A stretch of 64,000 bases of DNA, taken from Verrucomicrobiota bacterium. GTDB lineage: Bacteria > Verrucomicrobiota > Verrucomicrobiia > Chthoniobacterales > Terrimicrobiaceae. The notes under the pieces were generated by a model. That model searched no databases. It had not been told where the DNA came from and saw nothing but the letters and a program-made list of their open reading frames with translations. Positions within the stretch are counted from its first letter, which is position 1. Every line of letters starts with the position of its first letter. Where the stretch lies: contig JAPLTF010000069.1 in assembly GCA_026398275.1 (NCBI GenBank), positions 21,719 through 85,718 of the forward strand. The letters run 5' to 3'. Below, in pieces: positions 4,800-64,000 of this stretch. Position numbers and translations under genes: made by a program.

Positions 4800-5959
4800 T
4801 CGAGGTCGAAGCCCTTTGGGAACTCATCGATGAAATGGTTGTCCCGGGCGAAGCCTGCGATGTGCCGGTGACTGACGCGCTCGGAACGATCACGGCTGCA
4901 GATGTTGTTGCTCCGGCGGACATGCCGCCGTTTGATCACAGCGCGATGGATGGCTACGCCCTTGCCGGTTCCGGTTTGGAACCCTGCTCCATCGTGCGTG
5001 CGATCGCTGCCGGGAATGTCGATGCGGGCGTGATCCATCGTGGCCAAGCGGTGAGGATTTTTACCGGAGCTCCCCTTCCGCAAGGCACTCACTGCGTCGT
5101 TAGGCAGGAAGACTGCCTGGTGGATGGGAGCGTCGTTCGCGTCCGGGAAGATGTCACAGTCAGTGAGGGCGCACACCTCCGCCGTCGCGGAGAGCTGCTG
5201 GAAAAGGGAGGCGTGATTCTTCCCCGTGGGGCGGATATCACGGCCGGGGCGATTGCGCTGCTGACAAGTTGCGGGATCACAAAGGTTCCGGCCCTTTCAC
5301 AGCCCGTGGCCTGTCATATTTCCACCGGATCCGAGTTGGTGGAGGCGGGCGGAGTATTGGGTGCCGGGCAGATATACGACAGCAACGGCCCGATGATGCA
5401 GGCCCTGCTTGACGCGCGGTGCACCCGGCTTGTTCGCCAGCGGGTGCCCGATGTGGCCTCCGAGCTTCATTCCGCCGTTGCAGGATTCACCGGCGACCTG
5501 CTGCTGATCTCCGGTGGCTCGGGGCCGGGCGACCACGACCACACCGGCAGGGCGCTTCGTGATGCCGGATATACCATTCATGCCTCCCGCATCAACAGCC
5601 GACCCGGAAGGCCGCTGATCTTCGCCACGCGAGGCCGCCAGGTTGCCTTCGGGCTCCCTGGCAACCCCCTCTCGCACTGGGTCTGCTTCCACGCATTCGC
5701 CACCCGCGCCCTTGCCCGCCTCGAAGGCAGGGATATCCCGGCATTGGTCAATGCTCATCTCACCGAACAACTGCCAAGCGGCGGCGACGGACGCCGCACT
5801 TGGACTCCCGCCCGGCGGCAATATCGCGACGGAATGCTTTATGTCGTGCCGCTCGGCTGGCAACATTCCGGTGATCTGACACCCTTGGCCTCTGCGGATG
5901 CGCTTCTGATGAACAGGCAAGACCCGGCAACCCATTTGTTTCCAACTTTTCTTTTATGA
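4796..5959 (+). CDS. moeA: Molybdopterin molybdenumtransferase MoeA
   Basis: Enzyme of 387 residues that inserts molybdate into adenylylated molybdopterin. Conserved motifs include MPPFDHSAMDGYAL in the N-terminal third, FTGAPLPQGTHCVVRQED, STGSEL, a glycine-rich SGGSGPGDHDHTGRAL in the MPT-binding domain, and GLPGNPLSHWVCFHAF. Two starts are possible. The ATG at 4796 overlaps the moaE stop and has GGGGGAG upstream; the ATG at 4778 has AGGAGG upstream and adds six residues. The first fits the coupling pattern of the operon. MoeA acts with Mog, encoded two genes downstream. Confidence 0.96.
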   Translation: MIEVEALWELIDEMVVPGEACDVPVTDALGTITAADVVAPADMPPFDHSAMDGYALAGSGLEPCSIVRAIAAGNVDAGVIHRGQAVRIFTGAPLPQGTHCVVRQEDCLVDGSVVRVREDVTVSEGAHLRRRGELLEKGGVILPRGADITAGAIALLTSCGITKVPALSQPVACHISTGSELVEAGGVLGAGQIYDSNGPMMQALLDARCTRLVRQRVPDVASELHSAVAGFTGDLLLISGGSGPGDHDHTGRALRDAGYTIHASRINSRPGRPLIFATRGRQVAFGLPGNPLSHWVCFHAFATRALARLEGRDIPALVNAHLTEQLPSGGDGRRTWTPARRQYRDGMLYVVPLGWQHSGDLTPLASADALLMNRQDPATHLFPTFLL

Positions 5960-7882: not shown

Positions 7883-8149
7883 AATAATTAGGAAAAAGCT
7901 GCGTTGCTGAGGATTTTTGGCTTGGCCAAGGCACGAAGGCGGCGGCAATACCCGCAGCGGTCTTGCCCCGCCTGAGCAACGCAGGCCAAGCCAAAAAGAC
8001 ACGCAACCCTCTGGGCGAGAGTAGAAAAGGCCGTCTGGCGGCGTTGCTCGCTCAGTTACAGCCCGCTGAGGGGATGCGCCTTCGCGAGCGCCTTGCCATC
8101 CGGCCTTTTCTGCTCTCGCGCGGCTTTTCCTAATGATTTCACAGGTTCT
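7872..8149. repeat. Full-length nested palindromic MITE-like element, copy 2
   Basis: The element of about 278 bases has terminal inverted repeats reading AGAACCTGTGAAAT at the left end and the mirror image at the right end, extending about 28 bases with a few mismatches. Inside are two hairpin modules. Module 1 pairs TTTTTGGCTTGGCC (7914-7927) with its exact complement at 7984-7997. Module 2 pairs 8015-8033 with 8101-8119 (18 of 19 bases). Module 1 is nearly identical, in inverted orientation, to positions 1-141. There is no coding capacity and no clear target duplication. It truncates the regulator gene on its left. Confidence 0.85.
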
Positions 8150-8165
8150 GAGTCAAAAAAACAAA

Positions 8166-8184
8166 CCCGGCCCGTGAAGCCGGG
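8166..8184. terminator. Possible intrinsic terminator hairpin
   Basis: A six-base GC stem, CCCGGC paired with GCCGGG around a seven-base loop, is followed after five bases by a run of T (accaaattttt). It sits just right of the palindromic element and before the hydantoinase gene. It may be the surviving terminator of the gene cut by the element, or an attenuator of the next gene. The stem is short, so the call is weak. Confidence 0.35.
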
Positions 8185-8232
8185 ACCAAATTTTTCTATG
8201 GGGAGAAATGACTCCGTGCTTTGATGGTGTCC

Positions 8233-9618
8233 ATGGCACTCCTGATTAAGAACGGGGAAATTGTGACGGGCAGCTCGAGGCTTGTGGCGGACATCTGGTG
8301 CGAGGGGGAAACGATCACCCGCATCGATAAAAACATCCCGGCTCCGGCGGGAGCGGATGTCGTGGATGCGGCCGGCAAATTTGTGTTCCCGGGGTTCATT
8401 GATCCGCACACGCATATCTACCTGCCCTTCATGGGGACGTTTTCCAAGGACACCTATGCCACGGGCACGCAGGCCGCGGTAGCTGGCGGAACCACGACGA
8501 TCTTTGACATGTGCTGCCCGTCGCGCCTGGAGGAAGCGGCGGACGGGTTTGCCACATGGAAGTCCCAGGCCGATGGCAACGCCTGCTGCGATTACACCTT
8601 CCACATGGGCGTCACCAGGTTCGACCAGGGAACAGAGGCCCAACTGCGAAAGATCGTCGCCGAGGGAGTGCAATCCTTCAAAATCTTCCTCGCCTACAAG
8701 GGCGCGTTCGGGATTGATGACGCCGAACTCCTCGCCACCCTCCGGCTCGCGCGCGAGCTCGGCGTCGTGACCGCCGCGCACTGCGAAAATGAAACCCTGG
8801 TCGCGGAACTCCAAAAGAAACTGCTCTCGGAGGGAAAAACCGGACCCGAGTGGCACCACGAGAGCCGCCCGCCGCGCGTCGAGGCGGAAGGGGTTCATCA
8901 CCTCATGACATTTGCGGAGCTGACAGGCGCCCCGGTCTACATCGTCCACCTGAGCTGCCGCGAGGCCCTCGAGGAGGCGGTCCGCGCCCGCCTGCGCGGC
9001 GTGGACGTGCGGGTCGAAACCCTCATCCAGTATCTCGTGCTGGACAAAACCTGCGCGGAGATGCCGGAGTTCGAGGGCGCGAAATTCGTCATGTCCCCTC
9101 CCCTCCGGGACAAATCCAACCAGCCCGTCCTTTGGAACGGCCTGGCCCAGGGGCTCATCGACACCGTCGGAACCGACCATGCCCCGTTTGACTTCGAGAC
9201 CCAAAAACCCATGGGCCTGTCGGATTTCACGAAAATCCCGAACGGCATCCCCGCCCTCGAGGACCGGATCCCGCTGCTCTATACACACGGCGTCTGCACC
9301 GGCCGCCTCGACCTCCAGACATTTGTCAATGTGGCCAGCACCAACGCGGCTAAAATTTTCAACCTCTTTCCTCAAAAGGGAACGATCCAGACCGGCAGCG
9401 ATGCCGATCTCGTTGTCTTCGATCCCTCGTATCGCGGAACCCTGTCCGTAAAGACGCAGACCTCCGCCGTGGACTACAACGCATTCGAGGGCTGGGAAAT
9501 CCAGGGCCGCCCCGCTGTCGTCACCGTGCGCGGAGAAATCGCCGCACGCGATGGACGGTTTATCGGCAGAACCGGCCGAGGGAAATTTCTTCAGCGACCT
9601 CCCTCGCAAAGTAAGTAA
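8233..9618 (+). CDS. Dihydropyrimidinase / D-hydantoinase-type amidohydrolase
   Basis: Cyclic amidohydrolase of 461 residues that opens dihydropyrimidine or hydantoin rings. Binuclear metal ligands are visible in order: DPHTHIY, the likely carbamylated lysine in SFKIFLAYKGAFG, AAHCENE, VYIVHLSC and TVGTDHAPF. The C-terminal segment PQKGTIQTGSDADLVVFDP is typical of the family. The start at ATG 8233 (MALLIKNGEIVTG) fits family N-termini; an ATG at 8224 and a TTG at 8221 are in frame, and a purine-rich stretch (ggggag) sits about 28 bases upstream of 8233. The 3' end overlaps hemB on the opposite strand by 59 bases. No other pyrimidine-catabolism gene is adjacent. Confidence 0.93.
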   Translation: MALLIKNGEIVTGSSRLVADIWCEGETITRIDKNIPAPAGADVVDAAGKFVFPGFIDPHTHIYLPFMGTFSKDTYATGTQAAVAGGTTTIFDMCCPSRLEEAADGFATWKSQADGNACCDYTFHMGVTRFDQGTEAQLRKIVAEGVQSFKIFLAYKGAFGIDDAELLATLRLARELGVVTAAHCENETLVAELQKKLLSEGKTGPEWHHESRPPRVEAEGVHHLMTFAELTGAPVYIVHLSCREALEEAVRARLRGVDVRVETLIQYLVLDKTCAEMPEFEGAKFVMSPPLRDKSNQPVLWNGLAQGLIDTVGTDHAPFDFETQKPMGLSDFTKIPNGIPALEDRIPLLYTHGVCTGRLDLQTFVNVASTNAAKIFNLFPQKGTIQTGSDADLVVFDPSYRGTLSVKTQTSAVDYNAFEGWEIQGRPAVVTVRGEIAARDGRFIGRTGRGKFLQRPPSQSK

Positions 9619-10934: not shown

Positions 10935-11918
10935 ATGTCCACCGCCGCACGACTCCACCAATTTGGAAAGCCCGCCGACTCGCTCACTGCCGGAGATATC
11001 ACAGTCCCACCCCCCGGACCGGAAGAGGTTGTGCTGGAGATGCTGGCGGCCCCGATCAACCCGGCGGACCTCAACGTCATCGAAGGCACATATGGAGATC
11101 TTCCGGCACTTCCCGCCACCATCGGCAACGAGGGGGTCGGGCGGGTGTCGGCCGTGGGGTTGGGCGTCACCGGATTGGAGCCCGGCCAGCTCGTCCTGCC
11201 CATGACATTCGGCACATGGTGCCGACAGATGATCGTGCCTGCGAAAAATGTCATCCCGCTCCCGGGCGGGCTGGATATTTTCCAGGCGGCGATGCTGACT
11301 GTGAACCCGGCGACGGCATGGAGGATGATGCACGATTTTGTGAAGCTCGAGCCCGGAGACTGGCTCGTGCAGAACGCCGCGAACTCGGGCGTCGGGCGCA
11401 GCGTCATCCAGCTCGCCCGCGCGATGAGCTTCAAAACTCTGAATGTCGTGCGGCGCGCGGAGCTTGTGGAGGAGCTCACCGCAGCTGGCGGAACCGTCGT
11501 CGTCACCGAAGAGTGCGACCTGAGAAAAGAGCTGAAGACCCTGTGCGGCGGAGCTCGCCCGAAGCTTGCCCTCAATGCCGTGGGAGGCCCCAGCGCCCTG
11601 AACATCGCCAACGCGCTCGCCCCGGGCGGATCGATGATCACGTTTGGCGCGATGAGCAAGCAGCCATTGAAAATTCCCAACGGGCTCCTCATTTTTAAAG
11701 GTCTGAAATTTGAGGGATTCTGGCTCAACCGCTGGCGGAAAACCGCCGGGCATGCCGCCCTGCGCGAAACCTATGCCGCGCTCGCCGAGCACCTGAAGGC
11801 CGGGACGCTTTTTACCCCCGTGCATGAAACCTACCCCCTCTCCCGCGTGGTGGAAGCCGCCGGGGCGGCCGCCAGGGAGCAGCGCGGAGGCAAGGTGCTC
11901 CTCGACCTCGCCGCCTGA
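10935..11918 (+). CDS. Zinc-independent MDR-family reductase (2-enoyl thioester reductase-like)
   Basis: Medium-chain dehydrogenase/reductase of 327 residues. The pattern APINPADLNVIEGTYG, PATIGNEGVGRVSAVG and WLVQNAANSGVGRSVIQLAR is that of MECR/ETR1-type trans-2-enoyl-CoA/ACP reductases and related quinone reductases, which use NADPH and carry no catalytic zinc. NVVRR follows the nucleotide-binding fold. The start MSTAARLHQFG at 10935 matches the family; an in-frame start at 10866 would add 23 unrelated residues overlapping the PfpI remnant. The cfa gene follows after 19 bases, perhaps in the same transcript, hinting at a lipid role. The substrate is not certain. Confidence 0.85.
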   Translation: MSTAARLHQFGKPADSLTAGDITVPPPGPEEVVLEMLAAPINPADLNVIEGTYGDLPALPATIGNEGVGRVSAVGLGVTGLEPGQLVLPMTFGTWCRQMIVPAKNVIPLPGGLDIFQAAMLTVNPATAWRMMHDFVKLEPGDWLVQNAANSGVGRSVIQLARAMSFKTLNVVRRAELVEELTAAGGTVVVTEECDLRKELKTLCGGARPKLALNAVGGPSALNIANALAPGGSMITFGAMSKQPLKIPNGLLIFKGLKFEGFWLNRWRKTAGHAALRETYAALAEHLKAGTLFTPVHETYPLSRVVEAAGAAAREQRGGKVLLDLAA

Positions 11919-13968: not shown

Positions 13969-14778
13969 TCAGTCTTCCGCTTCCGTGCTGTCGATGTCCG
14001 CCAGGCGGTTCGACGTGCAGGTGCCGCGCTTCGAACTTCTGATAAATTCAAAAAACTCGTTGGCCTCCGGTCCCCACCCGCTTTTTCCGGCTTCCTCAAG
14101 TGCCTCGCGAACCCTCAGCCCGCTGCGATAAACAAGCTTGAAAGCCCGCTTGATCTCCATCCGGGTCTTGGCATCAACCCCTCCCCGCCTCAGTCCGATC
14201 ACATTGATCCCCACAAGCAGGTTGCGGAAATTTGCCGTCACGAACGGCGGGATGTCCTTGTTGAAGCTCGAACTTCCCGCAACCATTGCCCGGCGTCCGA
14301 TGCGGAGGAATTGGTGGAAAACGCTTCCCCCGCCAAGGACCGCCGCCTCCCCGACGTCCACGTATCCGGCCAGCAGGCAGTTGTTGGTGATAATGACATT
14401 GTCCGCAATCGTCACATTGTGCCCGATGTGGGTGCCGACCATCAGGAAGCATCCGTTGCCCACCGTGGTGGCGCTTCCTTCCTTCGTCCCCCGGTGGATG
14501 GTCACGTATTCGCGGATCCGGTTGTTGTCGCCGATTCTGACCTCGCTGGATATCCCGGCATTGTGCGCAAAATCCTGAGGAGCGGCTCCGATGACCGCCC
14601 CGTATCCGACAAAGTTTCCCGATCCCATGGTGACCCGGCCCTCGATCACCGCGTAGGCCTGGACCACGCATCCGGCTCCCAACGTCACATCTCCGGCAAT
14701 GATCGCGTATGGGCCGACCTCCACATCTTCGGCAAGGCGGGCGGATGGTGAGACGATGGCTGTGGGATGAATTTTCAT
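13969..14778 (-). CDS. lpxA: Acyl-ACP-UDP-N-acetylglucosamine O-acyltransferase LpxA
   Basis: First enzyme of lipid A biosynthesis, 269 residues, built of left-handed beta-helix hexapeptide repeats (for example AIIAGDVTLGAGCVVQAYAV). The active-site region HNAGISSEVRIGDNNRIREY and LMVGTHIGHNVTIADN are recognisable, and GTHIGHN carries the region of the catalytic histidine. The start at 14778 overlaps the radC stop by four bases. Its presence supports an LPS-bearing outer membrane. The C-terminal ~20 residues (after FIRSSKRG) look like a lineage-specific extension. Confidence 0.94.
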   Translation of the reverse strand: MKIHPTAIVSPSARLAEDVEVGPYAIIAGDVTLGAGCVVQAYAVIEGRVTMGSGNFVGYGAVIGAAPQDFAHNAGISSEVRIGDNNRIREYVTIHRGTKEGSATTVGNGCFLMVGTHIGHNVTIADNVIITNNCLLAGYVDVGEAAVLGGGSVFHQFLRIGRRAMVAGSSSFNKDIPPFVTANFRNLLVGINVIGLRRGGVDAKTRMEIKRAFKLVYRSGLRVREALEEAGKSGWGPEANEFFEFIRSSKRGTCTSNRLADIDSTEAED

Positions 14779-15473
14779 AGGAGACCGGCGTCGCGGAAGC
14801 TGAAGTAGGGGAGCCGTCCGCCATCGGGTGAGCCCAGGATCATGTGATCCATCAGATTGATTTGCAACATCGATGCCGCCTCGCGCAGGGCGGATGTCAG
14901 GCGCCGGTCGGCAGCGCTCGGCTGGGGGTCGCCGCTCGGGTGGTTGTGGACAAGCACGAGCGAGTAGGCGCTGTGGATGATCGCCGGCCGGAAGATCTCC
15001 CGCGGGTGCGCGACGCATTCGTTGATCGAGCCCAGCGCAACCTCCTCCACGAGCAGCAGGCGCAGCTTGGTATCCAGCAATATCACCCGCAACGACTCGC
15101 GGCGCAGGGACAGAAATTCCTGGCCGAAAACCTCAAAGATCCTCGCGGGCGAGTCGAGCAGCGGGCGCTCCTCCCGGCTGCGGGCGAGCCGCTTACCGAT
15201 TTCGAACGCGGCAGCCAGCTCGATCGATTTTGCCTTGCCGATGCCTGAAACTTTTTTTCGGATCTCCAGGGCGGTCGCCCGCGAGAGCGCAACAAGTCCT
15301 GCGCCCGTGTGGAGAAGCTCCGAGGCCATCGCGAGCGCGTTCTTGCCGGGCCGGCCGGTGCGGATGAAGATCGCGAGCAGCTCGGCGTCGGTCAGCGCCT
15401 CAATGCCGTGCCGGTCGGCTTTTTCTCTCGGGCGCTCCGAGGCCGGCATTTCAAGAATGCGGGTCGTCTCCAC
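14775..15473 (-). CDS. radC: RadC/JAB-domain protein
   Basis: Protein of 232 residues with an N-terminal helix-hairpin-helix region (KVSGIGKAKSIELAAAFEIG) and a C-terminal JAMM-type metal-binding motif HNHPSGDPQPSAAD near residue 175. The family is annotated as DNA repair protein, but its biochemical role is still unclear. It is linked by overlap to lpxA and lies 3 bases after the polyprenyl synthase gene, so it is transcribed in a four-gene minus-strand operon. Confidence 0.94.
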   Translation of the reverse strand: METTRILEMPASERPREKADRHGIEALTDAELLAIFIRTGRPGKNALAMASELLHTGAGLVALSRATALEIRKKVSGIGKAKSIELAAAFEIGKRLARSREERPLLDSPARIFEVFGQEFLSLRRESLRVILLDTKLRLLLVEEVALGSINECVAHPREIFRPAIIHSAYSLVLVHNHPSGDPQPSAADRRLTSALREAASMLQINLMDHMILGSPDGGRLPYFSFRDAGLL

Positions 15474-15476
15474 GCT

Positions 15477-16463
15477 CTAAAATCGCTCGAGCAATGAGCC
15501 CAGGTGGGAGGCGATCGCCCTGAGCCCGCGCGCGTATTTGTTGTCCTGGATCTCGTCGAGCTGCGCAAGCGCCTCCTCGATGAGGCGGAAGGCAACGCCC
15601 TTGGCTGCCTTCAAAGCGCCCGCGCTGCCGAGCATCGCCACCAGAAGCTCGCCATCCACCTTGTCCTCCTTCAAAAGCAGATCCCGGATCGTGCCAACAT
15701 CCTTGCCGGACTGGAGCATCAGCAGGACTGGCAGGGTGAATTTCCCTTTTCTCAAATCCGTCCCGAGCGTCTTCCCCGTCTCCTCCTCACTCCCCGCCAG
15801 ATCGAGGATGTCATCGTAAATCTGATACGCCACGCCGAGTTTCGTCCCGAAGGTTTTCAATGCGCCGATGACCGGAGGGCTCGCCTCGCTGATGAATGCC
15901 CCCAGCTCGCACGCGGCCGAAAAGAGCGCTGCGGTCTTCATCTCGATGATCCGGTAGTAGTCGGCGGTCGAAAGCTTCAAGTCAAACCGCCGCTGGGTCT
16001 GGACGATCTCCCCCGAGCAGACCTCGGCGGCCGCGTCGGCAATCCGCCGGCAGATGTCGCTGTTGCTGAAATTCGTGGAGAGCCGCAGGGCATGCGCGAA
16101 GAGGCAGTCGCCGAGGAGCACTGTGATGGCGTTCCCCCACTTGGCGTTCGCCGAGGGCTGGTCGCGCCTCAACTCCGCCCCGTCCATGATGTCGTCGTGG
16201 ACAAGCGTGGCGATGTGGATCAGCTCCAGGATCACCGCCAGATCGACATGGCCTGCCGTGATCTTTCCGGTTGCTCCCGCGGAGAGCAGCGCCAGCGCCG
16301 GTCGAAGCCGCTTCCCGCCCGCGCCGCAAACATACGAAACATACCCCTCGACCGCGGGATCAAACGCCTTCGCCTGGGCCCGGATCCTCTCCTCCACCGT
16401 ATAGAGGTGGGGATTGATGAGCTCGAAGGCCTGGGCAAATGAGATCGGTTCAGCAGATGTCAT
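15477..16463 (-). CDS. Polyprenyl diphosphate synthase (IspB/octaprenyl type)
   Basis: Trans-prenyltransferase of 328 residues that extends allylic diphosphates with isopentenyl diphosphate to the long chain used for quinones. The first aspartate-rich motif is LVHDDIMDGAELRR, the second is YQIYDDILDLAGSEEETGKTLG, and GGKRLRPALALLSAG is the substrate-binding start. Chain length cannot be fixed by eye, but the small residues before the first motif fit long-chain synthases. It lies in an operon with SDR (18 bases upstream), radC and lpxA. Confidence 0.93.
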   Translation of the reverse strand: MTSAEPISFAQAFELINPHLYTVEERIRAQAKAFDPAVEGYVSYVCGAGGKRLRPALALLSAGATGKITAGHVDLAVILELIHIATLVHDDIMDGAELRRDQPSANAKWGNAITVLLGDCLFAHALRLSTNFSNSDICRRIADAAAEVCSGEIVQTQRRFDLKLSTADYYRIIEMKTAALFSAACELGAFISEASPPVIGALKTFGTKLGVAYQIYDDILDLAGSEEETGKTLGTDLRKGKFTLPVLLMLQSGKDVGTIRDLLLKEDKVDGELLVAMLGSAGALKAAKGVAFRLIEEALAQLDEIQDNKYARGLRAIASHLGSLLERF

Positions 16464-56129: not shown

Positions 56130-58544
56130 TCAGCCTAACCCGTGGCGGGCGGCGAAGACTTGACCCAGGGCAAGTCCGCCATCATTTGTCGGCACGCGCT
56201 GATGCCAATACGGTTGAAACCCTGCTTCCCGCAATCGCGTCACCGCGTGCTCCGTCAGGTAACGGTTCTGAAAACAGCCGCCACTCAGCGCCACGCGAGG
56301 ACAGCCGATCCGCCGCGCGACCTCGACAATCGCCTCCACCAGCGTGTTGTGAAACTTCGCGGCGATCTCGCCGACGGAAACGCCCCGCTGCAAATCGGCC
56401 GCGATCGCAGCGATCATCGCTGACCAGTCCAGTTGCATCGGCGCATGGCGGCTGTCGACTGGCAATTCATAGATGGCGCCAGTCTCGGTCCCATCAATGG
56501 CAAACTCCAGCTCCATCGCCGCCTGACCTTCAAACCGCGACTGCTGGCGCAAGCCCACCAGCGCGGCCACCGCATCAAACAGGCGCCCGGCGCTGGAACA
56601 CCAGGGCGAATTCAATCCGCGCGCCATGGCCGTCTCCAACGCGGCCCGCTCCATCGGGGGAAACATCCCGGCGAACTTTTGCCGCATCTCCAACAAAGTC
56701 TGATCGCGGTGATCGGCCAGTTCATGCAGCAACCCGAGCGCGGCGCGGCGCGGCTCTTTCACCGCCGCATCGCCGCCCGGCAACCGGAATGGCCGAAAGG
56801 AGGCGAGGCGTTCCACCGCATCGCCCGTCACGAGGAAAAATTCGCCGCCCCAGATTGTGCCGTCCGTGCCATAGCCCGTGCCGTCCCAAGCCACGCCCAG
56901 CGCGGGCAGCTCGGCCTCGTTCTCGGCGAGGCAGGACAAAACGTGGGCGATGTGGTGTTGGACCTGGATGACGCGCGGAGCGGCGGCCTCCGGCCCGGCA
57001 GGGCGCTGCTTTTCGGATTCCCGCCGGGCCGGATGCTGGCGTTCCAAGGCAAACTTCGTCGAGAGATAGTCCGGGTGCAGATCGGCGGCGATGATGTCCG
57101 GATCCGCGCCGTAGAGCTGGGGCAAGTCGGCGGCGGCGCGGCGGAAGGCGATGTCCGACTGTTCGGTTTCCAGATCGCCGATATGCTGGCTGAGAAAAAC
57201 CTGTTCGCCCACCGCCAGCGCGATCGAGTTCTTCAGATGCGCGCCAACGGCGAGGATCTTTTGATTTTGGAGTTTTGAGTCTGGAATCTGAACCGGCAGC
57301 GGCGCGTAACCACGCGCCCGGCGCAAGACCATCTCGCGGCCCGACATGATGAGGGCGATGGAGTCGTCCAGGTGGCGGACGATGGGACGATTGTGGACGA
57401 GAAACACATCCGCAATGCCGCGCAGCCGGTCGAGCGCCTCGTGTTCGTCGGTGCAAATGGGCTCATCGCTCAAGTTGCCGCTGGTGGCGACGACCGGGAA
57501 ACCCAACTCCGCCATCAGCAGGTGATGCAGGGGATTCGATGGCAGCATCACGCCGAGATTTGGATTTCCGGGGGCGACGCCGTCTGCGGGCGAGGCTTGA
57601 GGCCGGAGGCTGGAAGCCGGGCGGCGGCGCAACAGAACAATGGGTGCCTCAGGCGAGTGCAGCAGCCGCTCTTCCAGCGCCGAGACTTCACAAACTTCCA
57701 TCACGCCTGGCAGCGACGGAAACATCAAAGCGAACGGTTTTTCCTCACGGTGCTTGCGCTCGCGCAGGCGGCGGACGGCCCCGGCGTTCCGCGCGTCCAC
57801 CAGCAAATGGAATCCGCCGATGCCTTTCACCGCCACGATCTGCCCGCGACGAATGGCTTCGACGCCAGCCAGCAGGGCCGCATGACCGCGGGCCAGCGGC
57901 CATGGCTGGACCGGCGGCACGCCTGCGCCGGGCTCCCACAGTTCCAGTTGCGGGCCGCAGGCAGAACACGCGTTGGGCTGCGCGTGAAAGCGGCGGCTGC
58001 GCGGGTCGTCGTATTCCGCCTCACACGCGGGACACATCTTGAACCCGCGCATCGAAGTGTTGGCGCGGTCGTAGGGAAGCGCCTCGATGATGCTGAAGCG
58101 CGGGCCGCAATTCGTGCAGTTTGTGAACGGGTGGCGATGGCGGCGATTCGCCGGATCGAAAATCTCGCGCAGACAATCCGGGCAGGTTGCGATATCCGGC
58201 AACACGAGCGCGGTCCGGTGCCCGGATTTCCCGCTCTCGCGGATCACGAACCCGTCGTAGCCGATGGCATCGAGCCAGGTGGATTCGAGGCTTTGGATGA
58301 AACTGCGGGGCGGCTTTTCGGTTTCAAGGCGGCGGCGGAATTGCTCCAGCACGGCCTGCGCGCCCTCGACTTCCATGAAGACGCCCTGCGGAGAATTGTT
58401 CACCCAGCCGGCCAGGTCCAACTCGGACGCCAGGCGATAGACGAACGGACGGAAGCCCACGCCCTGAACCGCGCCACGAACAACCAGCTTCAGGCGTGTG
58501 GTGGCACGCGCGAGGCTGGCTTCCAGTGTCGTCATTTTCCCCAT
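56130..58544 (-). CDS. hypF: Carbamoyltransferase HypF
   Basis: Protein of 804 residues that makes the cyanide ligand precursor from carbamoyl phosphate. Domains in order: acylphosphatase (RGAVQGVGFRPFVYRLA), two zinc-finger pairs (CPDCLREIF, CTNCGPRFS, CPACEAEYD, CSACGPQ), YrdC-like (VAVKGIGGFHLLVDA), and a Kae1-like C-terminal domain (HPDYLSTKFA, VQHHIAHVLSCL). ATG 58544 has GGAAA upstream; an ATG at 58535 is a close alternative. It is the first gene of the ten-gene hyp-hox operon and lies 265 bases from the integrase start. Confidence 0.96.
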   Translation of the reverse strand: MGKMTTLEASLARATTRLKLVVRGAVQGVGFRPFVYRLASELDLAGWVNNSPQGVFMEVEGAQAVLEQFRRRLETEKPPRSFIQSLESTWLDAIGYDGFVIRESGKSGHRTALVLPDIATCPDCLREIFDPANRRHRHPFTNCTNCGPRFSIIEALPYDRANTSMRGFKMCPACEAEYDDPRSRRFHAQPNACSACGPQLELWEPGAGVPPVQPWPLARGHAALLAGVEAIRRGQIVAVKGIGGFHLLVDARNAGAVRRLRERKHREEKPFALMFPSLPGVMEVCEVSALEERLLHSPEAPIVLLRRRPASSLRPQASPADGVAPGNPNLGVMLPSNPLHHLLMAELGFPVVATSGNLSDEPICTDEHEALDRLRGIADVFLVHNRPIVRHLDDSIALIMSGREMVLRRARGYAPLPVQIPDSKLQNQKILAVGAHLKNSIALAVGEQVFLSQHIGDLETEQSDIAFRRAAADLPQLYGADPDIIAADLHPDYLSTKFALERQHPARRESEKQRPAGPEAAAPRVIQVQHHIAHVLSCLAENEAELPALGVAWDGTGYGTDGTIWGGEFFLVTGDAVERLASFRPFRLPGGDAAVKEPRRAALGLLHELADHRDQTLLEMRQKFAGMFPPMERAALETAMARGLNSPWCSSAGRLFDAVAALVGLRQQSRFEGQAAMELEFAIDGTETGAIYELPVDSRHAPMQLDWSAMIAAIAADLQRGVSVGEIAAKFHNTLVEAIVEVARRIGCPRVALSGGCFQNRYLTEHAVTRLREAGFQPYWHQRVPTNDGGLALGQVFAARHGLG

Positions 58545-58809
58545 GGTTTCCAAAAGTCACGAAGGGAATAGCACACGGCGATCCCAATTCGGATGCACAA
58601 ACTGAAAAACTTGCAAAACCCCGGACCGGAGAGAAAATCACCGAGGCATTTCCGCCCATGAGATGTTTTGCGACACGGGCAGGATGGCTGGTTTGGGAAG
58701 TGCGGGAAACATCTCTGGAACAACTCATTGTGAAAGTCACGGGCATGGAAGGCGAGTAGATTCATGCAGGATTTCATGCAGCGAGGTTTTGACACCGGTC
58801 CCTCGGCGT
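58545..58809. promoter_or_regulatory. Divergent control region of the hyp-hox operon and the integrase
   Basis: Contains the presumed promoter of hypF and the left end of the integrated element. A short direct repeat (AAAGTCACG) occurs at about 58555 and 58734, and TTCATGCAG is repeated 12 bases apart near 58762. No tRNA is present. Attachment sites could not be defined without the other end. Confidence 0.35.
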
Positions 58810-60063
58810 ATGAAGCCGAGAAATACAGTGGTGAGTGTGGGCCGGGAGCTGGCGGAAATCAAGATCTACACGCTGCGAAGCCGTGGGGGCTATCGATCCT
58901 TCCAATGCTGCTGGTATGAATTGGGCAAGCGGCAGACGAAGACGTTCGGGCACCTGCGGGCGGCGAAGCTCTTCGCCCAGCAGAAGACAGTCGCCCTGGC
59001 CAACGGGCTGACGGAGATCAACGAATCCACGCTGCGGGATGTGGAGGTGTTCAAGGACTGCGAGAACCGGATCGCGAAATTCGGACTCTCAATTCCATCC
59101 GTGATCCAGGAATGGATCGCACTCAAGGAATTCCTGCCAAACGTTCCGCTCTCTGAGGCGGTGCAGTATTACCGCCGCCATCAGGGTGCCATCAAGCGCA
59201 TGACGGTCGCCGAGGCCATTGCCCTATTTTTAGAATCCAAGAAAGGGGCCGGATTGTCGGATGTCTATTTGTCGGGCTGCAAGGTGCAGTTTGAAAAGGT
59301 GACAAAAGGATTTGGCGCATACCAGCTCGGCGAGGTGGCGCAATCTCAGATCGACCAGTTTTTGCGGGGGTTGCCCGGCGGGCCGGTTTACAAGAACAAC
59401 TTCCGCCGCGCGCTGGTGACGTTGTTCAACTGGGCGCGCAAGCAGGGATACTTGGAGGCGGATCGGAAAACCGCCGCCGACCGGGCGATGAACTTTTCTC
59501 TGCCGGATACGGCTCCCGCCATCTGGACGTGCGAGGAAATGCGAAAGATCCTATCGGCGGCTCCGGCGAGGTTGATTCCGCTGCTGGCCATCGGGGCCTT
59601 CTCGGGGATTCGATCGGCGGAGATCGCGCGTCTGGAGTGGCAGGATGTGCTTTGGGACCGGGGCTACATCGAAGTGAAGGCGCGGAAGGCGAAAACCAAA
59701 TCGCGGCGGCTGGTTCCGTTGAAGGATAACCTCAAGCGCTGGCTGGAACCATTTCGGAAAGAGTCCGGGCAGATCAGCGAAGTCGAATGTTCTTCAGCCG
59801 GGCTCAACAGCCTGGGAGATGCCGTTGGTTTCAAATGGCGGCAGAACGCGCTGCGGCACAGTTATGCGAGCTACCGACTGGCCGAGATTCAGAGCGCGGC
59901 GCAGGTCGCGCTGGAACTCGGCAACAGCCCGGAGAAGCTCTTCGCGCACTACCGTGAACTGGTCACACCCGAAGCGGCCAGCGAATGGTTCCAGATTTTT
60001 CCGCCCGAGGGATGGGAGCCGAAGAAAGAAGTCCCGCGTCGGCGCAGGCTCCGGCCGTTGTGA
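58810..60063 (+). CDS. Tyrosine-type integrase of an integrated element
   Basis: Site-specific recombinase of 417 residues. N-terminal Arm-like region, core-binding domain (GAGLSDVYLSGCKVQFEKV) and catalytic domain with Arg in FSGIRSAEIARLEW, Lys in EVKARKAKTKSRR, NALRHSYASYRL, LGNSPEKLFAHY. The tyrosine is in FAHYREL. Two positions that are usually His (before LRH and in LGH) are Asn here, as in some verrucomicrobial integrases. Start ATG 58810 (MKPRNTVVSVGREL); upstream codons look non-conserved. It lies beside the hydrogenase operon and converges on an HTH gene 4 bases away. Confidence 0.88.
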   Translation: MKPRNTVVSVGRELAEIKIYTLRSRGGYRSFQCCWYELGKRQTKTFGHLRAAKLFAQQKTVALANGLTEINESTLRDVEVFKDCENRIAKFGLSIPSVIQEWIALKEFLPNVPLSEAVQYYRRHQGAIKRMTVAEAIALFLESKKGAGLSDVYLSGCKVQFEKVTKGFGAYQLGEVAQSQIDQFLRGLPGGPVYKNNFRRALVTLFNWARKQGYLEADRKTAADRAMNFSLPDTAPAIWTCEEMRKILSAAPARLIPLLAIGAFSGIRSAEIARLEWQDVLWDRGYIEVKARKAKTKSRRLVPLKDNLKRWLEPFRKESGQISEVECSSAGLNSLGDAVGFKWRQNALRHSYASYRLAEIQSAAQVALELGNSPEKLFAHYRELVTPEAASEWFQIFPPEGWEPKKEVPRRRRLRPL

Positions 60064-60067
60064 AAGC

Positions 60068-60277
60068 CTACCCCCTGGCTTCAACCCCGAACTTGCCGGT
60101 GATCGCCTGCCTGACCGCCTCGGCATCGAAGAGGTGGAGTCGCGGGCTCGGGGCGATGTAGGGGATCACGCGGTCACCGACCCAGTTGTCGATGGTGCGG
60201 GGGCTGACCCCCAGGAGCGCGGCGATTTCTTTTTTCTTGAGGAGTCTGCGGACGGTGGCGGCGGGTTCGATATTCAT
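60068..60277 (-). CDS. Excisionase/AlpA-like helix-turn-helix protein
   Basis: Protein of 69 residues with a MerR/AlpA-like winged helix: LLKKKEIAALLGVSPRTIDNWVGDRVIPYI. Proteins of this type are excisionases or activators of integrases in prophage and satellite elements. It is transcribed toward the integrase and away from the second HTH gene, with a palindromic control region between them. Length and pattern fit a directionality factor, but no test distinguishes it from a repressor. Confidence 0.75.
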   Translation of the reverse strand: MNIEPAATVRRLLKKKEIAALLGVSPRTIDNWVGDRVIPYIAPSPRLHLFDAEAVRQAITGKFGVEARG

Positions 60278-60322
60278 GCACCGTTTGCGATGTCAACGCA
60301 GAGAGTCGCGTTTTTGCGGAAA

Positions 60323-60340
60323 TGTCGTTACGTAACGACA
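60323..60340. promoter_or_regulatory. Perfect 18-base palindrome in element control region
   Basis: TGTCGTTACGTAACGACA is a perfect palindrome. It lies 46 bases upstream of the excisionase-like start and 164 bases before the other HTH gene. Symmetry, AT-rich surroundings and position between two divergent regulatory genes suggest an operator for one of the two HTH proteins. A second inverted repeat, GGTTTTGC at 60422-60429 with GCAAAACC at 60438-60445, may be a second site or a hairpin. Confidence 0.55.
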
Positions 60341-60503
60341 ATTGCCCAATTTTTGACTGCCGGAGAGCACGCTCAAAACGGGATTTTCACCCAAAAATTG
60401 AAAATTCGAAAAAAAACTTACGGTTTTGCCGCGTGGCGCAAAACCACAGGGTAATCGAAAGCCGGTGAAAGTCAAGCTTGCGGTTGACACCGCATGCGTG
60501 GGC

Positions 60504-60752
60504 ATGAACAGCGAAACCCCACTTCAGAGCCAGCAATGGCTCACGGAAAAAGAACTGGCGCGGCATCTCAATGTGAGCCAGCGCCATTTGGTAAATCTGC
60601 GAAAAACCGGCCTCCCCCATATTTTGTTGGGTGTGAGCGTGCGTTACAAGCTCGCCGAAATCGAAGCCTACCTGTGCGGAAACCGGCGGCTGTCGTCGCA
60701 TGTGGAGCGGAAGCGCCGGCAGGTAAACACGAATCTTGGAGGGCTCCTGTGA
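60504..60752 (+). CDS. Small HTH protein (excisionase/regulator-like)
   Basis: Protein of 82 residues from ATG 60504 (a TTG at 60426 is open but unlikely). The helix-turn-helix is WLTEKELARHLNVSQRHLVNL, followed by a wing, VRYKLAEIEAYLCGNRRL, and a basic tail HVERKRRQVN. This resembles DNA-binding proteins of the excisionase/MerR class. It is the first gene of the plus-strand element operon and its stop overlaps the next start (TGATG). Confidence 0.72.
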   Translation: MNSETPLQSQQWLTEKELARHLNVSQRHLVNLRKTGLPHILLGVSVRYKLAEIEAYLCGNRRLSSHVERKRRQVNTNLGGLL

Positions 60753-61102
60753 TGAAACTCCCGGACCTGTCATATCTGGCGCTGCCCGATGGCGTGCTTT
60801 TCCAAGTGAACAAAAAGCCCGAGTCGGCGCGAGCCACAGCCGAGCGCATGGGGATGCTGGCCGGTTTGAACCGTGATCTGACCCGTCCGGGAGGAGGGAT
60901 CAATGTTGCCACTGCGATCGGACGGGATGGCGAGTGGATGCGGGCGATCGTGGCGAGCAATGCCCCCGCGATCACCGGTTTTGAATGGATGGAGTTTGCT
61001 GTTTCGCCTGTGAACCACACGGCGACAAGCTGGCTCTTTTCGCTGGCCTGCGCGATGGCCCATGCGGACCCGGACACCATGCGGTTTGAGGAGCGCTCAT
61101 GA
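60752..61102 (+). CDS. Unknown element protein, paralogue of the next gene
   Basis: Protein of 116 residues with no known domain. It shares a clear pattern with the following protein: LALPxGxxL at the start, a G-D/E-W core (DGEWMRAIVASNAP), then FEWMEFAVSPV and a C-terminal helix. It is translationally coupled to the HTH gene before it and to its paralogue after it. Function unknown; the place next to a primase suggests a role in element replication or control. Confidence 0.7.
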   Translation: MKLPDLSYLALPDGVLFQVNKKPESARATAERMGMLAGLNRDLTRPGGGINVATAIGRDGEWMRAIVASNAPAITGFEWMEFAVSPVNHTATSWLFSLACAMAHADPDTMRFEERS

Positions 61103-61425
61103 ACCTCGGATCACTTGCTCTGCCCAAGGGTGCCGTCCTGCTCAAGGACATGGATGATGAGCGATCAATGGCGACCGCGTTCCAGCTCGGCCTCTATTCG
61201 CACATCGTCGCAGGGTTGAAATCCACGGACAAGCCGTCTGGAATGGCGGGCATCCAGCGCAGCGGCGACTGGCTCGTGGCGGTTTTCGCATGGGAGCGGT
61301 GCGTCACTGGCAACGGCTGGGCAATGCTCTCGATCTCGCCCGTGAGCGAGGAAAACCTGTCGTTTCTCAAGAATCTCGTTCGGATCATCCTGGACGAGAG
61401 GCCGGAATACATCTCCACCCCATGA
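61099..61425 (+). CDS. Unknown element protein, paralogue of the previous gene
   Basis: Protein of 108 residues aligned end to end with the one before: SLALPKGAVLLKD, RSGDWLVAVFAWER, WAMLSISPVSEENLSFLKNL. The two are probably an old tandem duplication whose products may form a heterodimer. Overlaps both neighbours by four bases (ATGA). No signal, helix-turn-helix or catalytic motif was seen. Confidence 0.7.
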   Translation: MNLGSLALPKGAVLLKDMDDERSMATAFQLGLYSHIVAGLKSTDKPSGMAGIQRSGDWLVAVFAWERCVTGNGWAMLSISPVSEENLSFLKNLVRIILDERPEYISTP

Positions 61426-63719
61426 GCGAGCCCGTCACACGACCCGGGATTTCACCGGAGACGCTCGCGGCGCTTGGGATCCGCCATGTGGATGCGGAGG
61501 AGGCGAAAACGCTCGTCGGGCAGAGTTTCGCCGGCCTCTACATCCCCTACGGCGTGCATGTCGAAGGGAAGCCGTTCGGGCGTCTGCGCCTGGACACTCC
61601 GACCTCGGACCGGAAATACACACAGCGGGTCGGTAGCGGCGTGCATCCGTATTTTCCGGCGCTGCCGGGGCTGGACGGCCAACCGGATCTGGTGCTGGTC
61701 GAGGGCGAGTTCAAGGCGATCGCGCTGTGCGAGGCCGGGATCCGTGCGGTCGGGATCAGCGGGTTCTACGGGTTCATGCACAAGGGGGAAATTTGCGCGA
61801 GGCTCGCCAGGCATCTCAAGGAGCACCCGGCTCAAAGGGTGCTCTTCCTCGGCGACAACGACACGACGTTCAATGTGCAGTTTTCCGATGCGGCGGTGAA
61901 GCTGGCCGGGCTGATGGTGCCGGTTCCGGTTGCGTTGCCCCGCATCCCGCTTTCCATGCCCAAGGGGGCCGACGATTGCCGGGAGCAGCTCGGGGCCGCA
62001 GCATTCGGCCCGTGGTGGGAGTCGCTTGTCGCGGGAGCCGTGGAGGTGCCGCCAAAGATCCGTGCGGACCTGCTGGCGGTCGAGCTCGTGAAGGCGGCGG
62101 CTGGGGACATGCGGGCAATCGCCGGGGTGGAGCGGGCGATGATGCTCCAGCGTCTCGGGAAACTCTCCACCGGGCTCCACGGGCTCGCCAGGGCCGAACT
62201 CGCCGACGTTTGCAAGGAGAAGGTCGGGATCAACAAAAGCGTGATGCACCAGGCGGTGGCGGCGGCGATGCGGGAAACCGAGGCCGCGCTGACGACGAAG
62301 GAAGAATGGAAGGCGGTCAGCGAAAGCTACGGGGAGCCGATGTTCGTGAGCCGGGACGGAAAACTGATCACCGGCCTGAACGAGCGGTTCTGGGCCGGAC
62401 TGATCCGCAAACAGCACCTCCTGCTCCACGAGCCGGGGGAAAAGCGGTTCTACCGGTATGAGGAATCCAGCGGGCTGTGGGCGGCTCAGTCGAAGGCGTC
62501 GCTCGCGCAACTCGTCTGCGACACGGTGCACGCGGAAACCGGCGGGCATAGCGACTGCGTGAAGCACGCGCAGCTCACGTTTGCAAACGCCGTGGTCGGC
62601 CACCTTGCCGGTATGGTCGAGAAGCCGGATGCGTTTTCCGCCGACCCGATCGGGATCCACGTCGCCAACGGGTTCCTGGTCATCGATGGCGTTGGGATCA
62701 CGCTGCGCGGGTTCAGCCCGGATTTTTACAGCCGGAACCAGTCGCCGATCGCCTTCGACCCGGAGGCCCTGTGCCCGATGTTTTTGGAGCAGGTTCTTTA
62801 CCCCGCCCTTGAGCTCGAGGACATCGGCCTGCTTCGCTACTGCGTCGGCCAGTGCCTTCTCGGGCGGAATTTGATGCAGACGATCCTCATCCTCTTCGGG
62901 CCGGGCGGTGCCAGCAAGGGGACGCTCAGCAACGTGGTCCAGGGGCTGCTGGGCGAGCACAATTGCTACGAGCTGCGGACCGAGCATCTGGTCGAGCGGT
63001 TCGAGCTGTTCCGCTACATCGGCAAGAGCCTCCTCTATGGGGCGGATGTGGAGCCGGAATTTCTGCGGCGCCAGGGGGCCGAGGCGCTCAAGAAGCTCGT
63101 GGGCGGCGACCTGCTTTCCCCCGAGGGCAAGGGCAGCAACGAGCAGATCAACATGCGCGGGGTGTTCAATGTGATCGTCACCTGCAACAAGCGGCTCTCG
63201 GTGCGGCTCGCCGGGGACGCGTCGGCATGGCGGCGGCGGCTGCGGATCATCGGATTCAATCCGCCGAGGGCTGACCGCCCGAGCATCGTGAACTTCGACC
63301 GCATGCTGCTCGAAAAAGAAGGCGCCGGAATCCTCAACTGGGCGGTGCTGGGCGCGGTGGAAGTTCTGCGCGACAAACGGGCGAACCGGACAAGGTTGCT
63401 CACCGATGCGCAGCAGCAACGGGTCGAGGCATTGCTCGGGCAGTCGGATTCGATGCGCCTGTTCCTGGAAACCTGCGTCGATCGGATGCCGGGAGATAGC
63501 CTCGAAAAGAACGACCTGCTGGAACGCTACGCCGATTTCTGCGGAGACAAGTGCTGGGAGCCGTTGCCGGAGCTGGCAGCCAGAAAAGAACTCAACAACC
63601 GCATGCTGGAGCTGTTCGGTTCAGTGGAACGCAAGAGCGCGGGTTCTCGAAACAACCAGCGCGGGTATTCAAACGTGGGTTTTCGGGGTGAGGAAAAAGT
63701 GCCGGATTCGCTGATTTGA
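61422..63719 (+). CDS. TOPRIM primase-SF3 helicase replication protein (phage/satellite type)
   Basis: Protein of 765 residues. N-terminal part has a DUF3854/TOPRIM-like nucleotide site (DLVLVEGEFKAIALCEAG; LGDNDTTFN). The C-terminal part is an SF3-type D5/P4 helicase: ILFGPGGASKGTLSNVVQG as Walker A near residues 490-505, DVEPEFLRRQG, and CNKRLSVRLAGDASAWRRRL as the motif C/Arg finger region. It resembles the alpha-type replicase of P4 and PICI satellites. It starts by ATGA overlap with the paralogue gene and is followed by the putative origin. Probably essential for element replication. Confidence 0.85.
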   Translation: MSEPVTRPGISPETLAALGIRHVDAEEAKTLVGQSFAGLYIPYGVHVEGKPFGRLRLDTPTSDRKYTQRVGSGVHPYFPALPGLDGQPDLVLVEGEFKAIALCEAGIRAVGISGFYGFMHKGEICARLARHLKEHPAQRVLFLGDNDTTFNVQFSDAAVKLAGLMVPVPVALPRIPLSMPKGADDCREQLGAAAFGPWWESLVAGAVEVPPKIRADLLAVELVKAAAGDMRAIAGVERAMMLQRLGKLSTGLHGLARAELADVCKEKVGINKSVMHQAVAAAMRETEAALTTKEEWKAVSESYGEPMFVSRDGKLITGLNERFWAGLIRKQHLLLHEPGEKRFYRYEESSGLWAAQSKASLAQLVCDTVHAETGGHSDCVKHAQLTFANAVVGHLAGMVEKPDAFSADPIGIHVANGFLVIDGVGITLRGFSPDFYSRNQSPIAFDPEALCPMFLEQVLYPALELEDIGLLRYCVGQCLLGRNLMQTILILFGPGGASKGTLSNVVQGLLGEHNCYELRTEHLVERFELFRYIGKSLLYGADVEPEFLRRQGAEALKKLVGGDLLSPEGKGSNEQINMRGVFNVIVTCNKRLSVRLAGDASAWRRRLRIIGFNPPRADRPSIVNFDRMLLEKEGAGILNWAVLGAVEVLRDKRANRTRLLTDAQQQRVEALLGQSDSMRLFLETCVDRMPGDSLEKNDLLERYADFCGDKCWEPLPELAARKELNNRMLELFGSVERKSAGSRNNQRGYSNVGFRGEEKVPDSLI

Positions 63720-63749
63720 GCAAAAGTGCCTGAATAGGGCTGCATCAGA

Positions 63750-63882
63750 ATGAAGTTGGGACACTTGGGACACGTTTTTTTAACCCCTTACGTTTACGGG
63801 ATTTTGTGTGTATCGGAGATATACCTTTTTACCTATATATATAAGGGGTGGGAATTTTGTGTCCCAGGTGTCCCAACTTCAT
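63750..63882. other. Candidate replication origin: inverted iteron-like repeats around an AT-rich core
   Basis: The left arm (63750-63773) and right arm (63859-63882) are inverted repeats matching at 23 of 24 bases. Each arm has two direct TTGGGACAC-type units, so four GGGACAC sites face inward. Inside, ACCCCTTA (63783-63790) pairs with TAAGGGGT (63842-63849), and the centre is AT-rich with a TATATATA run. It lies just after the replication gene, as origins do in P4 and PICI elements. Function is inferred from form and position. Confidence 0.6.
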
Positions 63883-64000
63883 CGGTGTGCTTCAGTGATC
63901 CAGGCTGTGCGAGGGGCGATGGGGAAATAGGCGTTTTTCGCCCTCCCCTGGGAGCCGTTGAGCCGTTGAGGCTGCCCCGCCTTGCACCCTCAAAGCACCC
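63883..64000. other. Element end region, nothing identified
   Basis: No gene, repeat or attachment site can be supported in the last 118 bases. GAGCCGTTGAGCCGTTGAGG near 63951 is a short tandem. The element continues beyond the window. Confidence 0.4.

Follow-up and report, generated by a model that had tools for sequence, protein, structure and literature searches.

A candidate PICI-like element beside hypF in a Verrucomicrobiota genome and its ties to tailed phages

The phage satellite families treated in the work cited here belong to Enterobacterales, Pasteurellaceae, Vibrionaceae and gram-positive cocci (PMC6092414, PMC10111431, PMC10803314). The PICI plan comprises int, a regulator, a primase and rep that are sometimes fused, and an origin in which two sets of iterons flank an AT-rich region (PMC6092414). 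In gram-negative PICIs the order of zones places the captured helper genes at the right-hand side, and helper-embedded PICIs capture phage genes (PMC10111431). The marker families of the PICMIs are PF00589, PF12728 and PF19263, which correspond to an integrase, an AlpA/HTH_17 protein and a DUF3987/DUF5906 primase (PMC10803314). A full-text literature search combining "phage satellite" with "Verrucomicrobi" yielded no paper on the subject, as judged by title.

The DNA considered here is a stretch of 64,000 nucleotides (the window, C39:21719-85718) from a 4.66-Mb Verrucomicrobiota genome that is assembled in 117 contigs and is 98.7% complete. A sequence-only reading had placed a satellite-like integrated element at 58810-64000 of this window. 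An element is present, while the proposed borders did not hold: the left end is inferred near 58705, and the unit extends beyond 64000 and also beyond window coordinate 65687, where the contig ends, leaving 1.7 kb readable beyond the window and ~7 kb of the left side legible. Between 58705 and 63882 the element consists of an integrase gene, a reverse-strand HTH gene, an AlpA-like HTH_17 gene, the small genes unkA and unkB, a TOPRIM-SF3 replicase gene and an origin-like repeat (Table 1). As known from its genes and repeats, it is PICI-like in design, rather than a proven PICI, and it looks like a PICI-like satellite with a captured phage gene. We judge the chances to be evenly balanced that it is an integrative element of the PICI/PICMI type, designed like a phage satellite and readable over its left 7 kb.

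Table 1. Features of the element and of the DNA to the right of its origin-like repeat. Coordinates are those of the window unless preceded by L004 (window = L004 + 57281).
Feature	Coordinates	Strand	Evidence
Inferred left end (attL side) and integrase leader	58705..58791	+	91% copy of 87 bp on C86, differing DNA leftward
Tyrosine recombinase (integrase)	58810..60063	+	PF00589 4.8e-8; phrog_1 2.6e-26
Excisionase/regulator-like HTH_17 protein, 69 aa	60068..60277	-	PF12728 4.2e-6; TIGR01764 5.4e-6, slightly under cut-off
AlpA-like HTH_17 protein, 82 aa	60504..60752	+	PF12728 7.2e-8; 69% identity to L245 cassette protein
unkA, 116 aa	60752..61102	+	No family match; 53% identity to L245 homologue
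unkB, 108 aa	61099..61425	+	No family match; 46-47% relatives in four IMG/VR contigs also bearing MgsA_C
TOPRIM-like + SF3 helicase replicase, 765 aa	61422..63719	+	DUF5906 (PF19263) 8.1e-10; phrog_1156 7.9e-40; P4-family primase C-terminus (TIGR01613) 2.5e-26, below NCBIfam cut-off
Origin-like repeat: two 9-bp iteron pairs (TTGGGACAC) around AT-rich stretch	63750..63882	.	Inverted-repeat search, folding, 9-mer count
Stand-alone RarA/MgsA C-terminal domain (MgsA_C)	L004:6768-7316 = window 64049-64597		phrog_16866 2.8e-64; solved relatives 3bge, 3pvs
McrA-like HNH nuclease	L004:7331-8119	-	EcoKMcrA 6ghc 6.8e-6; PADLOC type IV restriction model
C-terminal part of HNH protein	L004:8092 onwards	-	Interrupted ~8267 by repeat

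Comparison with described satellites

As in the gram-negative PICIs, the window element carries an integrase and an AlpA/HTH_17 regulator at one end, and a primase-rep gene is followed by two iteron sets around AT-rich DNA, the predicted origin. Further likenesses to gram-negative and helper-embedded PICIs are the dynamic small genes, the phage-shared genes on the right and the occurrence of a related cassette within a phage genome (PMC6092414, PMC10111431). The differences concern the host (Verrucomicrobiota vs. Enterobacterales and Pasteurellaceae), the replicase, which is a fused TOPRIM-SF3 protein in the window, and the phage-shared gene, which encodes a RarA C-terminal domain and not a capsid or terminase protein. 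The att sites of gram-negative PICIs are direct repeats; none was found in the readable right side of the window element, whereas two of its relatives (L057 and L064, below) have them. PICI packaging or interference genes, which some published PICIs also lack, were not recognized in the readable 7 kb.

With the PICMIs of Vibrionaceae (PMC10803314) the element shares PF00589, PF12728 and PF19263, all above their cut-offs, a small number of genes and defence-like cargo. Unlike them, it adjoins hypF and not fis, and it has two small paralogues in place of the int-overlapping iolg. Because it does not lie at fis, it is not classed as a PICMI, though the marker genes are present.

P4-type satellites are alike in having an integrase, an AlpA-like gene and a primase-helicase, and in P4 the helper is exploited through psu, sid and delta. 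These three genes and epsilon are unmatched among the readable proteins in PHROG, Pfam and NCBIfam comparisons, and the origin design in the window is PICI-like. The element is not classed as P4-like because the P4-specific genes were not found in the readable part. From the P4/PICI plan proposed by the sequence-only reading, the PICI gene order and origin design remain, joined by complete minimal relatives; P4-specific genes were not found in the readable part, and the same left-arm gene order occurs in a tailed-phage contig.

Left end, small genes and replication module

The left end was placed near 58705 because the DNA to the left of an 87-bp segment differs between the hypF locus and a second copy of the segment on contig C86. 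Within the inferred left end, TGGAACAAC lies at 58716-58724, a sequence shared with the left cassette junction of phage contig L245 (below), and paired ATTCATGCAG/ATTTCATGCAG occupy 58760-58781 inside the integrase leader. The right part of the segment contains paired TTCATGCAG repeats; since these are found again ahead of related integrases at tRNA-Asp in two other genomes (G498 and G544), this part is taken to be integrase leader, not host DNA. The C86 copy (G000:C86:43911-43997; L005 9912-9998) adjoins the arg operon, and an IS-type repeat begins where the copy ends, suggesting the IS-cut remnant of a second related left end. This copy was considered as the attR of the window element and rejected, because its orientation would enclose the arg operon in the element. 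The sequence-only reading had proposed a search for attachment repeats; no att repeat above chance, and no attR, was found within the contig, the readable right side included.

The left neighbour of the element is hypF with the hyp operon of hydrogenase genes. Some 150 bp separate the hypF ORF from the inferred left end upstream of it, and hypF is transcribed away from the element; an effect of the insertion on hypF expression is a matter of speculation. Because none of the 25 other genomes searched in the family has a match to hypF (window 56130-58553), the hydrogenase maturation locus is accessory in this group, and synteny offers no empty site for comparison.

The integrase and the tandem small genes without family match (unkA and unkB) are present as had been claimed. 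Integrase relatives occur in 103 of 286 class genomes, and none was returned by the viral scan. A close relative in G498 (L132, G498:C39, 1596-13021) lies at tRNA-Asp beside an apparent type I restriction-modification system and a HipA-like gene, a defence island as read from translations. The small HTH genes had been called divergent; two HTH_17 genes are found, one of which converges on the integrase. unkA and unkB are paralogues (29% identity, 1e-10), and a fold search with a confident model of unkB (pLDDT 84) gave no significant structural match.

The predicted replicase gene, whose start overlaps the unkB stop (ATGA), agrees with the TOPRIM-SF3 protein expected at this place. Its TOPRIM part is read from the motifs VEGE...GDND in the first third of the protein, a sub-threshold DUF3854 match and N-terminal homologues; the SF3 helicase part is of the D5_N/DUF5906 type, with D5_N itself under cut-off. 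A nine-sequence family profile of the replicase matched the solved primase-helicase 7ola (2.1e-24). Its two halves appear to be shuffled within the group, because homologues of the N-terminal part are fused to other helicases in G004 and G005. Matches in 44 of 388 phylum genomes extend largely over the helicase part, and searches with the short patterns of the replicase found no close relatives in genome contigs or viral contigs.

The putative origin proposed to follow the replicase also found a counterpart. At 63750-63882 a 41-nt inverted repeat, 80% complementary, surrounds an AT-rich stretch, and its arms contain TTGGGACAC-TTGGGACAC and the near-inverse of this pair. This repeat is far from chance: its folding energy lies 7.3 s.d. 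below that of shuffles (z = -7.3; 0 of 200 shuffles as low), and the three copies of TTGGGACAC in the window, where 0.35 are expected, are all confined to it. We regard it as a putative replication origin. A search for known RNA families at the hairpin returned microRNA matches alone, far under gathering scores, which were taken as chance. Paired iterons of like kind are found downstream of related replicases in five loci, namely L048 (GGGACACTTGGGACGC and its inverse), L051, L052 and L066 (CGGACGG type) and L060 (GTGCCCCATG type); the same search did not find them near several other related replicases.

Most of the fetched replicase neighbourhoods contain a tRNA detected by ARAGORN, often <3 kb from the replicase, and two of them hold complete small elements. 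One, of 6.7 kb (L057), is bounded by a 52-nt att repeat (90%) at 5016 and in tRNA-Met at 11738, and contains integrase, unknown, HTH, unknown, TOPRIM-like and SF3 genes; the other, of 5.4 kb (L064), is bounded by a 54-nt att repeat (98%) in tRNA-Val at 9044 and at 14491, and contains SF3, small genes, an ATPase and an integrase. PHROGs comparison of ten scanned proteins from both revealed no structural family. A full prophage with terminase, portal, protease and capsid genes (L052) also has a related replicase and an iteron repeat. Because the relatives include both att-bounded small elements and this prophage, replicon type alone cannot separate satellite from phage. Elsewhere, a replicase relative in L048 (G188:C34, 12104-18588) has as neighbours a large serine recombinase (phrog_95) and genes whose translations read as BREX-like. 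In a genome of the same genus, L060 (G004:C157) combines a TOPRIM-like protein joined to a different helicase with an iteron repeat using another 9-mer, a near-identical MgsA_C and a HigBA-like toxin-antitoxin pair.

DNA right of the origin and kinship with tailed phages

The readable DNA to the right of the origin encodes MgsA_C, an McrA-like HNH nuclease, which is probable defence cargo, and the C-terminal part of a further HNH protein. The repeat that interrupts the latter translates into what was read as an ISL3-like transposase end; this IS-type repeat recurs at nine other contig ends, which accounts for the break in the assembly. The N-terminal half of the cut HNH gene was not found on other contigs. 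At two further loci of the genome, G000:C32 (L108 9619-10006) and G000:C23 (L109 7223-7289), 3' pieces of MgsA_C, cut at different points, are joined to host genes; the DNA that follows downstream, which carries XRE-type HTH genes, is the same at both loci, and they are read as remnants of further elements or phages. A dead remnant, immobile after its right end was lost by IS insertion or deletion, would fit the contig ending in an IS within a truncated HNH gene and the truncated MgsA_C copies at those two loci. We consider this very improbable, as the genes from integrase to replicase are all open, the origin repeat is intact and an IS in cargo need not block mobility.

The sequence-only reading had proposed to look for capsid-size, terminase-like or helper-exploiting genes, and had named structural phage or conjugation genes on the right as evidence against a satellite. 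Matches to Pfam, PHROGs and NCBIfam in the readable 7 kb included no recognizable terS, capsid, packaging or helper-exploiting gene, and the additional 1.7 kb contributed the phage-shared MgsA_C and no structural or conjugation gene; the assembly does not reach the right end. An integrative element of another kind (integrated plasmid, IME or ICE), mobile by conjugation and sharing replication genes with phages and satellites, seems improbable. P4-family primases are common on plasmids, and in G498 a related integrase drives the tRNA-Asp island with type I restriction genes, but no relaxase, T4SS or partition gene was recognized up to the contig end, and unkA, unkB and MgsA_C have relatives on phage contigs.

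MgsA_C relatives are mostly from Verrucomicrobiota. The domain is 97-99% identical in several IMG/VR contigs, four of which also have an unkB relative. One of these, L245 (IMG/VR 3300021605_000013), is a temperate tailed phage contig in which portal, head-tail, peptidase, TerL (GpA type), TerS and ParB-like genes are followed by a cassette and then MgsA_C; phage protein names in this contig and its sisters were read from translations and are not PHROGs matches. The cassette contains an integrase, HTH_17, unkA, unkB, a primase-like gene, a RepA-like ATPase gene and an iteron-like region, in the same order as the window element, with identities of 36% for the integrase, 69% for HTH_17, 53% for unkA, 47% for unkB and 99% for MgsA_C. 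Contig L245 differs from the window element in having portal and terminase genes, and the primase and RepA-like ATPase in place of TOPRIM-SF3.

Seven sister contigs are without the cassette (L139, L177, L180, L181, L183, L184, L188) and show a ParB-like gene, then an intact gene of ~296 codons, then MgsA_C. Of these, L177 has an IS at the place of the cassette and an HTH_17-unkB block on the opposite side of ParB. In L245 the ~296-codon gene is truncated at the cassette start (junction GTGATGATGG|AACAACAAG), and ~500 bp of it are replaced; for this reason the cassette does not count as a clean insertion at a specific site, and it may represent phage module exchange. After the cassette comes a phage-like intergenic stretch (CACCCTCAATGCACCCCC) and then MgsA_C. 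Stretch and MgsA_C are common to the window element and G004, with 92% DNA identity between these two, and because they are shared with phage contigs, the unit beside hypF includes phage-lineage DNA to the right of the origin. The MgsA_C phage lineage also includes L259, with portal, protease, capsid-like and tape-measure-like genes. In L177 (3300028557_000081) RarA seemingly occurs as two genes, the C-terminal domain and, 7 kb away, an AAA+ ATPase that resembles the RarA/clamp-loader N-terminal part as read from its translation (7965-8555 and 15160-15801).

These findings bear on the main rival explanation, in which a prophage from the tailed-phage lineage with MgsA_C, whether still intact or decayed, occupies the locus with its left arm. 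The block from integrase to origin would then be the phage's own lysogeny and replication module, with structural genes located rightward, lost, unassembled or of another type. We hold this to be a serious possibility, though a less likely one than the satellite reading. It is consistent with the gene-by-gene match to L245 and the near-identity of MgsA_C within the lineage, with the closest integrases (in G240 and G352), which adjoin tail-type genes, with a right side that is unseen because the contig breaks at an IS, and with prophage L052. It is opposed by the cassette being missing at that place in seven of the eight sister contigs, which argues against a fixed phage module, and by TerL of a sister phage in the lineage, which found no match in the 98.7%-complete genome in a search without positive control; the broad terminase family phrog_2 gave a weak match of only 20 bits. 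A portal-family search of the genome was without match, and its controls were likewise silent.

Proposed course of the element and its meaning

The satellite reading is favoured by a gene set and order that fit the PICI and PICMI descriptions, by the iteron repeat, by the minimal relatives L057 and L064, by an L245 cassette that cuts a gene intact in seven sisters, by the lineage terminase not being found and by the McrA-like cargo. Points against it are the missing attR, the lack of a terS, capsid or helper-exploiting gene in the readable part, the continuation into phage-lineage DNA, the replacement in L245, the existence of prophage L052 with its replicon of the same type and a terminase search that had no positive control.

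The sequence itself shows which genes are present and in what order, an architecture resembling an origin, an MgsA_C gene held in common with phages and, in one phage contig, a related cassette; the integration site, excision, replication, the direction of gene capture and packaging by a helper are inferred. The integrase would insert the element site-specifically, with its left end near 58705, while the small HTH proteins probably regulate the integrase and replication genes and assist excision. In the excised element, replication would be primed by the TOPRIM-SF3 protein, which would first attach to the paired 9-bp iterons and open the AT-rich stretch. To the right of the origin would follow the RarA C-terminal-domain gene common to tailed Verrucomicrobiota phages and then the McrA-like nuclease as cargo, and spread may occur via the packaging machinery of MgsA_C-bearing tailed phages. 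In one possible history, a satellite entered a phage to become the cassette, and its relatives departed with the adjacent MgsA_C gene, a capture like that described for helper-embedded PICIs (PMC10111431). In the other history that fits, some temperate members of the phage lineage carry the cassette as a module for lysogeny and replication, and hypF would adjoin a prophage left arm.

A broader and doubtful proposal is that of a helper-embedded satellite family of Verrucomicrobiota, which would insert beside MgsA_C in tailed phages, take up this gene and later enter chromosomes, the captured domain redirecting fork/SSB machinery to the iteron origin. If the satellite reading is true, the locus would provide a candidate satellite type, together with a replicon open to testing, in a phylum in which few phage systems have been studied, and the candidate helper lineage would be that of the IMG/VR contigs in which MgsA_C accompanies a GpA-type terminase. 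MgsA_C would serve as a marker with which gene exchange between such elements and phages can be followed.
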